Part shown: positions 27,014-33,971 of the stretch, piece after piece | Layout: each line of letters starts with the position of its first letter | Numbering within the stretch: position 1 is the first letter of the stretch | Assembly: GCA_937984095.1 (NCBI GenBank) | Contig: CALJYH010000011.1 | Location: 1 to 33,971, forward strand | Source of the DNA: an uncultured Gammaproteobacteria bacterium | GTDB taxonomy: Bacteria; Pseudomonadota; Gammaproteobacteria; GCA-001735895 | Length of the DNA: 33,971 nt | Reading direction: 5' to 3' | Translations under genes and position numbers: made by a program | Notes under the pieces: model-generated | Told to the model about the DNA's origin: nothing | Seen by the model: the letters and a program-made list of their open reading frames with translations, nothing else | Databases searched by the model: none

Positions 27014-27025
27014 GGAGCACGTAGC

Positions 27026-27493
27026 TTGGATCTCGCTGAAGAAACCGATTTACTCCGAAAAATCCCGATGTTTGCCAAGATGGAAACCTCTAAGCTAAAG
27101 CTATTGGCTTTCGCTAGCGAGATCGTGTCTTTCGAGACCGGCGATACCGTTTTCCGTAGCGGTGAAAGCGCAGATTATGCCTACGTTATTATGAGTGGCT
27201 CGGTCGATATTGTTACCGAAACCGATTCCGGACCGGTGCTCGTCGCCACGCTGTCACAAAATCAGCTTATCGGTGAGCTGGGATTGCTTAATAATGCGCC
27301 CAGAAACGCAACTCTCATCGCCAAGGATAGCCTCAAGGCAATGAAGATTACCGGCGATATGTTTTTCCGAATACTCAGGGAAAATTCAGAGGTCGCACTC
27401 GATGTAATCCGGATGTTAAGCGACAAGCTATCCACGACCCACGCACGGCTCGAGGCCTTACAAAAGCAGGTGAATAAACAGGGCGAGTCTTAA
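27026..27493 (+). CDS. Stand-alone cyclic nucleotide-binding (CNB/CAP_ED) domain protein
   Basis: 155 aa ORF with a phosphate-binding-cassette-like motif LIGELGLLNNAPRNATL and no apparent C-terminal HTH. TTG start at 27026 with GGAG at 27014-27017. Confidence 0.87.
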   Translation: MDLAEETDLLRKIPMFAKMETSKLKLLAFASEIVSFETGDTVFRSGESADYAYVIMSGSVDIVTETDSGPVLVATLSQNQLIGELGLLNNAPRNATLIAKDSLKAMKITGDMFFRILRENSEVALDVIRMLSDKLSTTHARLEALQKQVNKQGES

Positions 27494-28152
27494 TGCCGTC
27501 ACCCGCAGCAGACAGTATCGTCGGTCTTGACCGCTTTCGGGACCTGTGGCGTCGCTGCTTAATCGACGATGAAAAGGATGAAAGCGCCTCTATTCACCAG
27601 CGATTGGTAAGCTCCTACTGCGAACCGCAACGCCACTATCATACACTGGCCCATATCGAGCATTGTCTTGGCATGTTCGATCAGTGTAAATCTCTCGTCG
27701 GCAACCCCGATGCTCTAGAACTCGCGGTCTGGTTTCACGATGTTATATTTGAACCTGGCAGGCACGATAACGAAGCCCTCAGCAAAGAACTCTACCTCTA
27801 TCTTTCCATAAGGGTACATGCACCAGAATTGAGAGAGTTAGTGGGTCGATTGATAATGGCCACCCTGCACGACGGCAGTTCGCTCGAAGACGACGATGCG
27901 CGCTACATGGTCGATATCGATTTATCAAGTTTTGGCCTGTCCTGGGATGAGTTTTTACAGGATAGCAACAACTTGCGACTGGAGAATCCACAGCTCAGCG
28001 ATGCCGAGTACTATTTTAACCAGGGAAACTTTCAGAATCATCTCCTGGGCAGGGAACGCTTTTATCTTTCTGATTTTTTTAGCCAGCGCTACGAATCACG
28101 GGCACGAGACAACCTGGCCCGTTATTTTGAACGCGTGCGCCAGTCATCCTGA
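27493..28152 (+). CDS. HD-superfamily metal-dependent phosphohydrolase (COG4339-like)
   Basis: 219 aa ORF with RHYHTLAHIEHCL, WFHDVIFEPGRHDNE, IMATLH, and VDIDLSSFGLSW. ATG overlaps the stop of the preceding CDS by 1 nt (TAATG). Confidence 0.82.
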   Translation: MPSPAADSIVGLDRFRDLWRRCLIDDEKDESASIHQRLVSSYCEPQRHYHTLAHIEHCLGMFDQCKSLVGNPDALELAVWFHDVIFEPGRHDNEALSKELYLYLSIRVHAPELRELVGRLIMATLHDGSSLEDDDARYMVDIDLSSFGLSWDEFLQDSNNLRLENPQLSDAEYYFNQGNFQNHLLGRERFYLSDFFSQRYESRARDNLARYFERVRQSS

Positions 28153-29607
28153 TCAAACCTTGGCTTTCGGTGGCGGTAATAGATCCGAGGCCACAGTATA
28201 AATTCTAACCGGACGATTCAGCCCGCGCACCAGTACTTCGCCCAGCTCCTGGAACTCGAACATGTTCGGGGGGATCTCGGCAAGGGTACTTTCGGAGACA
28301 ATAATGCGCGTCCCGTAGTCCTTGTTTAATTGCTCCAGGCGTGCCGTCAGGTTGACGTTATCGCCATGCACCGTGTATCCAACCCGGTCCCCGGAGCCGA
28401 CCAATCCACCCACCACTGAGCCAGTATTGATACCGACCCTTGTATTGAATGAAATTCCCTCGCCGAACTGCACACCGTCCAACACGGTTTGAATCTCAAG
28501 TGCCGCCCTGACCGCGTTGCTGGCATGATTGCTATCCGGCTTAGGAACATTGAATGTAGCCAACACCGCATCCCCCTGGAACTGGCTGATAACGCCGCCA
28601 AATTGACTTATCGGACCAGCTATCAAGCTGAAATAGCGGTTCAGGGCTTCGATCAACTCTTCAGGAGTCAGAGTTTCACTGATCGCCGTGAATCCTTCGA
28701 TATCGGTAAACAGGATGGTGCATTCGCTGACCTCCCCTTTGCCAGTGATTGCGCCCTCTTCTGACTGAATAACCTTTTGCGCGACCTCCTGGGGCACGAA
28801 TCTCGATAAGTCCCGTGCCGCACTGCCCTCGATAATCGATTCGATGAGCAAGCCCCTGGCACGGTGCAGTGCCAATGCAAGCACGCCGGTAACCATTAAA
28901 ATCGACACGATTTTGTCAAATTCCGCGCCGATCAAAACACTATTTGAAGTCATGTATTCGATGTAGTCGCGAGTAATCATATTGCTGGCAGGGTCATTCA
29001 GCAGTACGTAAACAACCATTAATACCCAGCCAGTCGCTGCACTCAGACCCGTTGAAATCACAAACCGTGGATCGAAGTGCAGCGCCCGTATCGAGATAAA
29101 GATAAACAGGTAAAGCAGCGTCGGTGCCTTAAGGTAAAAGGAAGGCGGTTGTTCGTACTGCAGATGAAAGCTCCAGATCAGACCCATTAATAGAACAATA
29201 TCGGCAACCGACGAAAGATATAACATCCAGTCTGGAAGTTTACGTTTTACCGCCAGGCCCAGGCGTATCAGGCTGAACACAAGATACAGCGCCAGCACCC
29301 AGGGCACCGGGGCAAAGTCAGCATCTTGCGTAAAAGTCTTTGGCGCAATTGAGTAGAGCAAACCGAATGTAAAAACAATCGCCAGCTGGATCACGCTAAT
29401 CAGAATTTCACTTCGTTCCTGCTGATCCTGTATCGATTTGCGCAGCCGATCCGGTAATATTTGATCCTGGAAACCGCCCCCAAGCAAAGACCGCCGGGGC
29501 TCAGAACTGTTACTTGTTAATTTATTATTCAATACAGGCTCCAACAGGCGCTTTCTGCATCTCGGATATAAGACAGAATCGGCCACCAATAATTCCCATG
29601 CTTGCAT
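28153..29607 (-). CDS. Membrane-bound class III adenylate/guanylate cyclase
   Basis: 484 aa ORF with an N-terminal hydrophobic multi-TM region and a C-terminal cyclase domain: CTILFTDIEGFTAISE, QFQGDAVLATFN, TRVGINTGSVVGGLVGS, YTVHGDNVNLTARLEQLNK. Confidence 0.92.
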   Translation of the reverse strand: MQAWELLVADSVLYPRCRKRLLEPVLNNKLTSNSSEPRRSLLGGGFQDQILPDRLRKSIQDQQERSEILISVIQLAIVFTFGLLYSIAPKTFTQDADFAPVPWVLALYLVFSLIRLGLAVKRKLPDWMLYLSSVADIVLLMGLIWSFHLQYEQPPSFYLKAPTLLYLFIFISIRALHFDPRFVISTGLSAATGWVLMVVYVLLNDPASNMITRDYIEYMTSNSVLIGAEFDKIVSILMVTGVLALALHRARGLLIESIIEGSAARDLSRFVPQEVAQKVIQSEEGAITGKGEVSECTILFTDIEGFTAISETLTPEELIEALNRYFSLIAGPISQFGGVISQFQGDAVLATFNVPKPDSNHASNAVRAALEIQTVLDGVQFGEGISFNTRVGINTGSVVGGLVGSGDRVGYTVHGDNVNLTARLEQLNKDYGTRIIVSESTLAEIPPNMFEFQELGEVLVRGLNRPVRIYTVASDLLPPPKAKV

Positions 29608-29685: not shown

Positions 29686-30891
29686 ATGACAGAGCGACTG
29701 GAACAATCCAGGATACTTATTTATAGCCATGATTCATTTGGCCTCGGTCACTTGCGACGCTGTCGTTCGATTGCCCATTCGCTGGTCGCACGTTACAAGG
29801 GGCTATCGGTCCTTATTCTTTCAGGTTCACCGATTATCGGCAGCTTTGACTTTAAGGCACGCGTCGACTTCGTGCGTATTCCAGGCGTCATAAAGTTAAA
29901 GGATGGCGAATATACCTCGCTGGCTCTGCATATCGATCTGGAAGAAACACTGGCGATGAGGGAATCGATTATTTATCACACCGCGGCTACTTTTAAACCC
30001 GATATATTTCTCGTCGATAAAGAGCCCACCGGTCTGAAGGGAGAAGTAACCAGCACCCTCGAAATGCTTAAGCAGCAGGGTACCGTCAACGTACTCGGTT
30101 TACGTGACATTATGGATGAAACTACGTTATTGAAAAACGAATGGGAGCGTAAAGAAGTTGCACCGGTACTCGAACATCTTTACCACGATATCTGGGTCTA
30201 CGGCCTGAAGGAAATGGGTAGCCCCATTGATGGCCTGGGTATGTCAAACACGATCGAAAACAAGATTTCCTTTACCGGTTACCTGGGACGGGAAATTCCG
30301 AGCGATCGTAACTGGATTACACACACTAACCTCGATGAACCGTTTATCCTGGTAACCGCTGGCGGTGGCGGTGACGGGATCGACCTTGTGGAATGGGTCA
30401 TCCGCGCATACGAGTCTGGCGGGGAGCAACCGCATCGTGCGATCATCGTAACCGGACCCTTTATGCCGGCTTCCGAACAACAGAACTTTCATGATCGCTG
30501 CGAAGATTTGCCAAATGTCGAAATTATTAGTTTCGACAGTCATATTGAATTACTCATGAAGAAATCGATCGCGATCGTTGCGATGGGTGGCTATAACACT
30601 TTTTGCGAAATCCTGACCCTCGATAAACCCTCCTTGATCGTGCCGAGATCGGTTCCCCGGCAGGAGCAGTTAATTCGCGCGGAACGGGCAGTCAGCCTGG
30701 GCCTCTCTACAATGCTCGATCCCGCACGTGGACTTGACCCGCTGCAGATGGCCGCAGCGTTACGTAACCTGCCACAACAATCCAGACCCTCGCTGGCGCA
30801 CGTACCCGGTTTACTCGCAGGACACGAAACCATAGCCGAAATGGTCCGCGAGTACCTCGAACCTTCCGAGCAGAAAAGCATTACCGCCTGA
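29686..30891 (+). CDS. Glycosyltransferase (COG4671-like, MurG/GT28-type C-terminal half)
   Basis: 401 aa ORF with N-terminal ILIYSHDSFGLGHLRRCRSIAHSLV, nucleotide-sugar-site-like FILVTAGGGGDGIDLVEWVI, AMGGYNTFCEILTLDKPSLIVPRSVPRQEQLIRAE. Confidence 0.8.
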   Translation: MTERLEQSRILIYSHDSFGLGHLRRCRSIAHSLVARYKGLSVLILSGSPIIGSFDFKARVDFVRIPGVIKLKDGEYTSLALHIDLEETLAMRESIIYHTAATFKPDIFLVDKEPTGLKGEVTSTLEMLKQQGTVNVLGLRDIMDETTLLKNEWERKEVAPVLEHLYHDIWVYGLKEMGSPIDGLGMSNTIENKISFTGYLGREIPSDRNWITHTNLDEPFILVTAGGGGDGIDLVEWVIRAYESGGEQPHRAIIVTGPFMPASEQQNFHDRCEDLPNVEIISFDSHIELLMKKSIAIVAMGGYNTFCEILTLDKPSLIVPRSVPRQEQLIRAERAVSLGLSTMLDPARGLDPLQMAAALRNLPQQSRPSLAHVPGLLAGHETIAEMVREYLEPSEQKSITA

Positions 30892-30917: not shown

Positions 30918-32066
30918 TTGCGAGTCATGATCTATGTCCAGCACCTGCTCGGTATCGGACACTTGCAGCGCTCGCTGTACCTGGCAGCCGAGCTCGCGCG
31001 GCAAAGCTTTCACGTCGAACTGGTATCCGGTGGTATGCCACATGCACTGACCATACCCGAAACCGTTCAGCTACGGCAATTACCACCTGTGTACAGTCCC
31101 GATGGTAACTTCAACCGCCTGTTCGATGTCCGTGGCAAAGACATTGACGATAACTGGCGGATCCGGCGTAAACAACAGTTGCTCGCGTTTTTCGAATCCT
31201 TCGCACCGCAGGTACTGATTACCGAGACCTTCCCGTTTGGACGGCGCATGATGCGTTTCGAGTTGATACCGTTGCTAGAGGTCGCCAGGCGCAGTGTCGA
31301 TTGTATTCAAGTCATCGCATCGATAAGAGATATTCTTCAACCGAAATCAAAACCCGGGCGAAACGAGGAGATTTGCGAGCTGATCGACCAATATTATGAC
31401 CATATTCTGGTCCACGGAGATCCGAAGATTGCGCGACTTGTCGATAGCTTTGACCTCGCCGCACGCATCGATGAAAAGGTCTCATATAGTGGCTATATCT
31501 GTGCACCCAGAAACGTGTTGGCACCTGCGCATGAGGGCGTCGATGAAGTGCTGGTTTCTGCTGGTGGCAGTACTACCGGCCTGCAAATATTGAAAACCGC
31601 AATCGCGGCGAAGCCTTTATCCCGATTAAGCAATCTACGCTGGCGCATCCTGGTGAGTCCATCGATTGATGATTCAGAGTTCCGAGCACTGCAACAACAC
31701 GCTGGTGAAGGATTTCACATCGAGCGCAATCGACCCGATTTTAGTGATCTGGTAAAACACGCCAGACTTTCAATATCGCAAGCTGGTTACAACACGGTCA
31801 CCGACATTCTCAATAGCGATACCGCGGCAGTCGTGATTCCCTATGCCGAGGCCGACGAAGTTGAACAAACCATGCGTGCACAAAAATTGCAGAACTGCGG
31901 CCGCCTGGTTCTGCTGCAACAGGATGACTTGTCCCCGGCAGCAATGGCAGCCGCCATCGCAAAGGCTGACCAACAAATTGCCACGCTCGAAGTGAACCTC
32001 GCGGGTGGAATAAACAGTGCCACCATGATCCTGGAATGGCTGCGTCGCGCGAGTAAAGAAAATTGA
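30918..32066 (+). CDS. Glycosyltransferase, related in layout to the upstream gene
   Basis: 382 aa ORF with VMIYVQHLLGIGHLQRSLYLAAELARQ, EVLVSAGGSTTGLQILKTAI, SISQAGYNTVTDILNSDTAAVVIPYAEADEVEQTMRAQKL. Start codon uncertain (TTG at 30918 or ATG at 30927). Confidence 0.78.
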   Translation: MRVMIYVQHLLGIGHLQRSLYLAAELARQSFHVELVSGGMPHALTIPETVQLRQLPPVYSPDGNFNRLFDVRGKDIDDNWRIRRKQQLLAFFESFAPQVLITETFPFGRRMMRFELIPLLEVARRSVDCIQVIASIRDILQPKSKPGRNEEICELIDQYYDHILVHGDPKIARLVDSFDLAARIDEKVSYSGYICAPRNVLAPAHEGVDEVLVSAGGSTTGLQILKTAIAAKPLSRLSNLRWRILVSPSIDDSEFRALQQHAGEGFHIERNRPDFSDLVKHARLSISQAGYNTVTDILNSDTAAVVIPYAEADEVEQTMRAQKLQNCGRLVLLQQDDLSPAAMAAAIAKADQQIATLEVNLAGGINSATMILEWLRRASKEN

Positions 32067-32869
32067 AAACCCTGACTGTCCAGGCCTGGCAGTGGCTCGA
32101 CCGCGAACTCGATAGCTGGGCGGATACGGGCCAAACAGCGAATTTCTGGTGGCGCGACGACGATGCGACCGAACCAAGTACCGCTCTAGACAGGCTGGTC
32201 GGATTAAGTCACAACTGGGATGTTCCGTTAGCGCTTGCTGTGATCCCGACCGGGCTCAAGCCTGAACTCGCTGATTTCCTGCGAGATGATTCTTTGAGCT
32301 GTGTATTCCAACACGGCTTCGCGCATGAAAACCATGCAACGCCGGGGCAACGCAAGCTAGAGCTCGGCGGCACACAAACCATCGAGAAATCGATTGCCGA
32401 GCTGCAGCAAGGTTACCAGGTACTACACGAACATTTCCCCGATCGATTCATACCGGTGTTAGTACCACCCTGGAATCGGATTGACGAAAAGCTTGTTGCC
32501 TGCCTTGCCGATATCGGATTTGCAGGAATTTCAACCATGAAGGTTTGCCGCAACGCATACCCCGCCCCCGGACTACACCAGGTAAACACGCATCTCGATC
32601 CGGTTAACTGGCGTCATCAAGGCGGATTCATCGGCGTCTATCCTGCAATTGCAATTCTGATCCAGCACTTGATTGCAAAAAGGCTCGGATACCGTGACAG
32701 CAACGAACCCACTGGCATCCTGACTCACCACCTCGCACAAAACGAAGCAGTGTGGCACTTTCTCGAAGACCTGCTGCAATTCCTGTCTGACCACCCCGCC
32801 GCCGACTGGCTCGACGCCTCCACCATCTGGGCAACACCAAAGTCACCCAAGGAAACCCCCGTCGACTGA
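32063..32869 (+). CDS. Polysaccharide deacetylase-like family protein
   Basis: 268 aa ORF with TANFWWRDDDATEPSTALDRLVGLSHNWDVPLALAVIPTGL, FQHGFAHENHA, VLVPPWNRID, and GILTHHLAQNEAVWHFLEDLLQFL, resembling NodB-like deacetylase metal and catalytic motifs. TTG start overlapping the upstream stop (TTGA). Confidence 0.75.
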   Translation: MKTLTVQAWQWLDRELDSWADTGQTANFWWRDDDATEPSTALDRLVGLSHNWDVPLALAVIPTGLKPELADFLRDDSLSCVFQHGFAHENHATPGQRKLELGGTQTIEKSIAELQQGYQVLHEHFPDRFIPVLVPPWNRIDEKLVACLADIGFAGISTMKVCRNAYPAPGLHQVNTHLDPVNWRHQGGFIGVYPAIAILIQHLIAKRLGYRDSNEPTGILTHHLAQNEAVWHFLEDLLQFLSDHPAADWLDASTIWATPKSPKETPVD

Positions 32870-33036: not shown

Positions 33037-33624
33037 TCAGGACTTGAGGAGGGGGATGGACTGGTAGCTGTCGAGCAGCTTGCCGTCGGCAGAGAGTTCG
33101 AACAGGTGGAGCGAGTCCCAGGCGAAGTCGACCGGGGACTCGCCGCGCATATCCCAATCAAACGCGAGCGCATAAATACACCGAATAATACCCTTGTGCA
33201 CCACCGCCGCAGTATCCTGTTCTGAACTGGCAATCTTCCGCAACCAGGTTTGCAGGCGGGCCTGGACCTGGCGCGGGCTTTCCCCGCCAGGTGGGCAGAA
33301 ATCGAGCCCTCGACTCTCGTTATTGCGCATCTCGTCGCCGAGGTGTTTACGCAATGGTTTTAGAATCTCCCCTTCCCAGTCACCCCAGCTCATTTCGATT
33401 AACGCCGTTTCAATCTTGACCGCATTTAGATTCAGTAGCTCGGCGGTCTGGATGGCGCGCCGCAAAGGACTGCAGAACCAACGATAGGCACCTATTTCCG
33501 GCGGCACTGACAGGCGCTGGAATTGTTGTCGACCGAGTTCAGACAGGGGTTTGTCGATCCGTCCCTGCACACGTTTCTCGAGGTTCCAGTCAGTTACTGC
33601 ATGTCGAAGCAAAGCCAGTTTCAT
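33037..33624 (-). CDS. Histidine phosphatase (phosphoglycerate mutase-like) family protein
   Basis: 195 aa ORF with the RHG-type motif LALLRHAVTDWNLEKRVQGRIDKPLSELGRQQ, and later FCSPLRRAIQTAELL and AAVVHKGIIRCI. Confidence 0.88.
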   Translation of the reverse strand: MKLALLRHAVTDWNLEKRVQGRIDKPLSELGRQQFQRLSVPPEIGAYRWFCSPLRRAIQTAELLNLNAVKIETALIEMSWGDWEGEILKPLRKHLGDEMRNNESRGLDFCPPGGESPRQVQARLQTWLRKIASSEQDTAAVVHKGIIRCIYALAFDWDMRGESPVDFAWDSLHLFELSADGKLLDSYQSIPLLKS

Positions 33625-33629
33625 ATTTA

Positions 33630-33971
33630 TTAATCGTCGCCAAGTGATTCATTTAATTTGCCAACCAGGATATCAATTCCCCTATCCATCGAAAATTCCT
33701 GCCGTACGCGGGTAAATCCTGCCTGTGCCAAACGGTTACGTAATTCGGGATCTCTTATCAGCTTATCCAGCGCCTGTCCCAACTGCTGGGAATTCTTCTG
33801 TTCAACCAACCACCCGGTCTCGGTATGAACGACAAGTTCTGGAATGCCCGATATATTGGTCGACAAACAGGCCAGGTTCTGGCTTTGTGCCTCCATCAAC
33901 ACATTGGGTAATCCATCCCGGTCACCATCCTCAGAAATTTTACTTGGCAGTACGAAAAGGTCCGCTGCACG
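33630..33971 (-). CDS. GT4-family glycosyltransferase, C-terminal fragment (N-terminus off the right edge)
   Basis: Manual reverse-strand reading from the window edge: RAADLFVLPSKISEDGDRDGLPNVLMEAQSQNLACLSTNISGIPELVVHTETGWLVEQKN, a typical GT4 EX7E-region signature. The supplied ORF begins internally at a GTG (33902). Confidence 0.85.
   Translation of the reverse strand, partial: RAADLFVLPSKISEDGDRDGLPNVLMEAQSQNLACLSTNISGIPELVVHTETGWLVEQKNSQQLGQALDKLIRDPELRNRLAQAGFTRVRQEFSMDRGIDILVGKLNESLGDD

Follow-up and report, generated by a model that had tools for sequence, protein, structure and literature searches.

What does an HD-superfamily hydrolase do when its gene lies between those of a cyclic-nucleotide-binding (CNB) protein and a nucleotide cyclase? 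This arrangement is found in the window, the whole stretch of 33,971 nucleotides analysed here, which forms one 34-kb contig in a MAG of 63% completeness. Among named relatives, the Olavius algarvensis Gamma 3 endosymbiont is the nearest to the genome. CNB domains bind cyclic nucleotides (cNMPs), class III cyclases make them, and HD-domain enzymes include phosphodiesterases (PDEs). A preliminary description of the window proposed that the three genes form a self-contained module that writes, reads and erases a cNMP. Our analysis tips the balance slightly toward a cNMP signalling unit in which the HD protein erases the cyclase product, and the HD protein itself is best read as a cyclic-nucleotide phosphodiesterase or, failing that, a closely tied hydrolase.

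The gene order, the 1-nt overlap, the tail-to-tail junction and the motifs given in that description are all confirmed in the sequence. The CNB gene (27026-27493, plus strand) encodes a stand-alone CNB-domain protein of 155 aa, the putative reader, and is preceded by a GGAG ribosome-binding site (27014-27017, plus strand). Both this site and the TTG start are conserved in relatives. The HD gene (27493-28152, plus strand; 219 aa) begins within the CNB stop codon, its ATG sharing the last A of TAA (27491-27493). The HD stop codon TGA (28150-28152) abuts the stop codon (28153-28155) of the minus-strand gene for a membrane class III cyclase (28153-29607; at most 484 aa), so that the two genes meet tail to tail at TGATCA. 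The cyclase reading frame is present as described, but its start at 29607 is doubtful. The N-terminus is ragged in relatives, and the first 20-25 codons or so are unconserved and interrupted by stops in sister species. Therefore, the true start probably lies about 70 nt inside this position.

The CNB protein contains a PF00027 domain (E 1.8e-18) with a phosphate-binding cassette (GELGLLNNAPRNAT) that includes the Glu and the Arg, and it matches the CNB domains of PKG and PKA. The Gly and Arg of the cassette are invariant, and the Glu is present in 18 of the 19 relatives compared, the only exception being the CNB protein of G033. The protein would bind the cNMP made by the cyclase. The cyclase consists of five hydrophobic segments, by estimate, followed by a PF00211 domain (E 1.1e-28) with the metal-binding Asp pair and the transition-state Asn and Arg; these residues are assigned according to what is established for class III cyclases. 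The purine-specifying positions are occupied by Gln and Thr, which are conserved in window-type orthologues and replace the canonical adenylate cyclase pair (Lys with Asp or Thr), absent from the window cyclase. Therefore, the identity of the product is uncertain. The cyclase would make a 3',5'-cNMP, with cAMP the most likely product, if not a certain one, and cGMP left open by the Gln/Thr pair.

The HD protein has no match in Pfam or NCBIfam, a PDB sequence search with it returns no relatives, and comparison with other HD families (HD-GYP, SpoT, and GlnD) gives nothing significant. The preliminary description called it COG4339-like, a label that we take to fit the family. The H..HD..D motif of the HD superfamily is present in a predicted all-helical fold. 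The metal site, YHxxxH...HD...D with the upstream catalytic His, comprises H50, H54, H82, D83, and D143 and is common to the generic COG4339-like phosphohydrolases, with which the window protein shares all catalytic residues and the length. In the subfamily linked to cyclases and CNB proteins, residues H50, H54, H82, D83, N93, E94, S97, T124, D141, D143, and E164 are invariant, and the same set is nearly invariant in the generic relatives. In contrast, S146, F147, W151, and D157 are present in at least 93% of the linked subfamily and in at most 6% of the generic relatives; the latter have I146, L147, and Y157, and W151 is an addition of the subfamily. These residues directly follow the last metal ligand, where a change of substrate would be expected to leave its mark. 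The linkage to cyclases is a trait of the window subfamily that the generic members lack, and in the HD tree the linked subfamily is nested inside the generic family. In a literature search that covered few subscription papers, neither COG4339 nor a module of HD, cyclase, and CNB proteins turned up as the subject of a paper.

The AlphaFold2 model of the HD protein (pLDDT 96.6; 58 related sequences) was compared with the PDB using Foldseek. The top matches are class I PDEs (PDE10A, PDE1B, and PDE4B) with TMq up to 0.68 and probability near 1, at E-values of 0.05 or worse and with PDE entries over-represented in the PDB; the best non-PDE HD protein listed has a TMq of 0.53. By TM-score, class I PDEs (PF00233; PDE4, PDE10A) are the nearest PDB fold, and they share with the window protein the fold of the HD superfamily, the YHxxxH and HD motifs, and a late D-L-S motif. 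They are larger (about 310-330 residues versus 201 modelled residues), and the region of their purine-binding Gln is not recognised in the HD protein. Sequence kinship is unsupported in a profile comparison with four PDE sequences: hhalign of the HD family against PDE4D, PDE5A, PDE7A, and PDE9A (sequences checked against the PDB) gives a probability of 0.8%. PF00233 (PDEase_I) is also absent among the matches of 58 HD family members at E up to 1, and a search of 274 Gammaproteobacteria shows next to no class I PDEs of this Pfam family. The modelled fold supports phosphodiesterase activity, short of showing it.

Two cautions weigh most on the biochemical claim. The first is CpdA. The class III (metallophosphoesterase) bacterial cAMP phosphodiesterases to which it belongs have the role proposed here for the HD protein and an unrelated fold. 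A cpdA gene lies elsewhere in the window genome, separate from the trio, so the HD protein would share the role of cAMP phosphodiesterase, and the idea that it alone has this role is rejected. The second is SpdA of Sinorhizobium meliloti, which, like the window HD protein, is a predicted phosphodiesterase at a cyclase locus (cyaD1); it belongs to the metallophosphoesterase family and acts on 2',3'-cNMPs (PMC4222275). Therefore, genomic context can mislead on activity.

The preliminary description suggested searching related genomes for the trio. In the order, the HD gene is present in 29 of 41 genomes, and by gene coordinates CNB and HD are adjacent in 23, HD and cyclase are convergent in 21, and the trio is complete in 20, one of which has it divided between two contigs. 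The HD gene occurs in all 24 genomes with a window-type cyclase and in 5 of the 17 without (Fisher p 8e-7, the genomes being phylogenetically non-independent). The recurrence is well beyond chance. The CNB gene is the part most readily lost: G006, G007, and G008 hold HD and cyclase genes without an intact stand-alone CNB gene. Upstream in G008, a truncated CNB reading frame alone remains.

Beyond the genus, neighbourhoods of the HD subfamily were surveyed with local HMM searches in one genome per GTDB species (80 loci), and whole-genome searches added more. A cyclase gene, a CNB gene or both lie within 3 kb of the HD gene at 73 of 87 sampled loci, while a single one of 35 loci of generic relatives (L196) has an adjacent cyclase. 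Within 1.5 kb of HD (246 kb in all), there are 59 cyclase and 40 CNB genes, compared with 6 and 7, respectively, in the 788 kb lying 1.5-8 kb away; the density near HD exceeds that further out 31-fold for cyclases and 18-fold for CNB genes. Some Granulosicoccaceae members of the subfamily have no cyclase or CNB gene nearby, and neither an HD-cyclase nor an HD-CNB fusion was found in the surveyed loci.

The arrangements vary. In the window type, CNB and HD converge on the membrane cyclase. In Competibacteraceae, NudC (NADH pyrophosphatase), HD, and an FHA-domain cyclase follow one another in a conserved order (L083:957-3546, plus strand, and about 20 further loci of this type). Elsewhere, HD precedes a CHASE2-cyclase beside a glutaminase-STAS-CNB or SulP-STAS-CNB protein; HD faces CNB and CHASE2-cyclase genes on the opposite strand (Halieaceae); a cyclase precedes HD (L147 and L196); CNB precedes HD alone; or a patatin/NTE-CNB gene lies beside HD. 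The HD subfamily adjoins at least five unrelated kinds of cyclase, the partners being of membrane, FHA, two CHASE2, DUF5939, and 1154-aa types. In the cyclase tree the partners come from several lineages, and well-supported branches force at least five label changes. Two labels of this tree are wrong (L101_other_467 lies near HD and is not 'other'; L087 is of the FHA type though tagged MEM), which leaves the separation of lineages unaffected. The partner CNB proteins are likewise diverse: stand-alone, patatin/NTE, glutaminase-STAS, SulP-STAS, and redox-CNB. The recurrence of cyclases of several lineages beside the HD gene is the strongest evidence for a functional association. Together with the joint occurrence of HD, CNB, and cyclase across genera, it bears out the functional link proposed for the trio.

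Several individual loci deserve mention. At L118 (10955-12856, minus strand), a glutaminase-STAS-CNB fusion adjoins HD and a CHASE2 cyclase, suggesting cNMP control of glutaminase. At L196 (4390-8489, plus strand), the 1154-aa cyclase is co-directional with a borderline HD relative and overlaps it by 1 nt. In another genus of the family (L035:2186-3535, minus strand), a CNB domain ends what by eye appears to be an RND/MMPL-type transporter near HD. A histidine phosphatase and an HD domain share a single reading frame at L085 (7251-8621, plus strand). Among distant relatives, an HD domain is fused behind domains that by eye resemble CoaD and CoaE of coenzyme A biosynthesis (L140:6729-8612, plus strand), and G251 carries three HD paralogues inside 7 kb (L141:4971-11908, minus strand).

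The HD protein might instead be the output enzyme, a hydrolase that is switched by cNMP-bound CNB and acts on another nucleotide or phosphate, such as AMP, a 2',3'-cNMP, a dinucleotide, or a nucleotide-sugar product. We regard this as unlikely, with an appreciable chance of being right. The translational overlap of HD with CNB in the window genus is in accordance with it, as is the presence of CpdA in the genome. The NudC-HD-FHA-cyclase operons and the histidine phosphatase-HD fusion point to other phosphate substrates, and generic relatives occur in other contexts, including the CoaD-CoaE-like fusion. However, pairs of an HD gene and a cyclase also occur with no CNB gene adjacent (Competibacteraceae; G008), so CNB gating is not the common theme, and cyclases and CNB proteins are the only partners that recur across all arrangements. 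Removal of the cNMP by the HD protein is the reading that we retain.

The output of the unit is likeliest to be control of glycan synthesis or export. Adjacent to the trio lie two glycosyltransferase genes (Glyco_tran_28_C; 29686-30891 and 30918-32066, plus strand), a gene for a 268-aa protein with no Pfam match that looks deacetylase-like by eye (32063-32869, plus strand), and a histidine phosphatase gene (33037-33624, minus strand; PF00300, E 3.2e-38), all conserved neighbours, followed by a group 1 glycosyltransferase gene that is cut by the window end (33630-33971, minus strand). In distant genomes, too, window-type HD loci have these families in their vicinity, together with an ABC exporter. 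In G006, where the stand-alone CNB gene is gone, the exporter encoded in this glycan cluster, an ABC protein, has a C-terminal CNB domain with 37% identity to the window CNB protein (L216:12309-15398, minus strand), a connection between the reader and glycan export. The HD protein itself could be a phosphatase of the glycan pathway, with the cyclase and CNB protein regulating the pathway and merely adjoining HD. Such a role would fit the surroundings of the trio, where genes for glycosyltransferases, a histidine phosphatase, and an ABC exporter form a conserved cluster, as they also do at distant loci. We nevertheless consider it doubtful, since loci with an FHA-cyclase or CHASE2-cyclase arrangement showed no glycan cluster and yet have HD next to the cyclase.

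The linkage could also be an inherited neighbourhood of no functional meaning. The whole region is syntenic within the genus, and therefore the genomes of the genus are not independent evidence. This explanation is very improbable: gene orders, orientations, and cyclase lineages vary around the same HD subfamily, and cyclases are enriched 31-fold in its immediate vicinity. An anti-phage system of the Pycsar kind was considered and rejected as next to impossible; the cyclase and the CNB protein match the models for PycC and Pycsar effectors because they share domains with them, whereas the 155-aa CNB-only protein lacks a TIR, a membrane, or any other effector domain, the trio lies in conserved chromosomal synteny, and to our knowledge an HD protein is not a Pycsar component.

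Taken with its surroundings, the trio is not self-contained, as the preliminary description had it. The CNB protein is dispensable, CpdA and many cyclase and CNB domains are encoded elsewhere (the genome has 10 PF00211 and 11 PF00027 domain matches in total), and the glycan cluster adjoins. In the mechanism that we favour, HD translation begins at the CNB stop codon, the HD protein would remove the cNMP by metal-dependent hydrolysis, and the likely output would be the adjacent glycan synthesis and export cluster; we infer the substrate, the CNB gating, and the glycan output. The HD subfamily would then form a new HD-type family of bacterial 3',5'-cNMP phosphodiesterases beside unrelated cyclases, possibly gated by a coupled CNB protein in one lineage, a fuller proposal that we hold tentatively, at somewhat less than even chances. 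The genomic prediction of the preliminary description holds and extends beyond the trio, and its biochemical claim is a hypothesis that we think marginally better supported than its negation.

Bacteria with at least ten class III cyclases need to remove cNMPs, and CpdA-type enzymes are the usual explanation. With its repeated occurrence beside unrelated cyclases, the HD family offers a specific candidate for this task that is cheap to test. If the proposal is true, the COG4339-like HD family gains a function, the HD protein could be a compact bacterial counterpart, in fold, of the human drug-target PDEs, and the link to the glycan cluster offers a testable output. Judged from its sequences and neighbourhoods, the HD subfamily may represent messenger-degrading enzymes that have so far gone unrecognised as a family.
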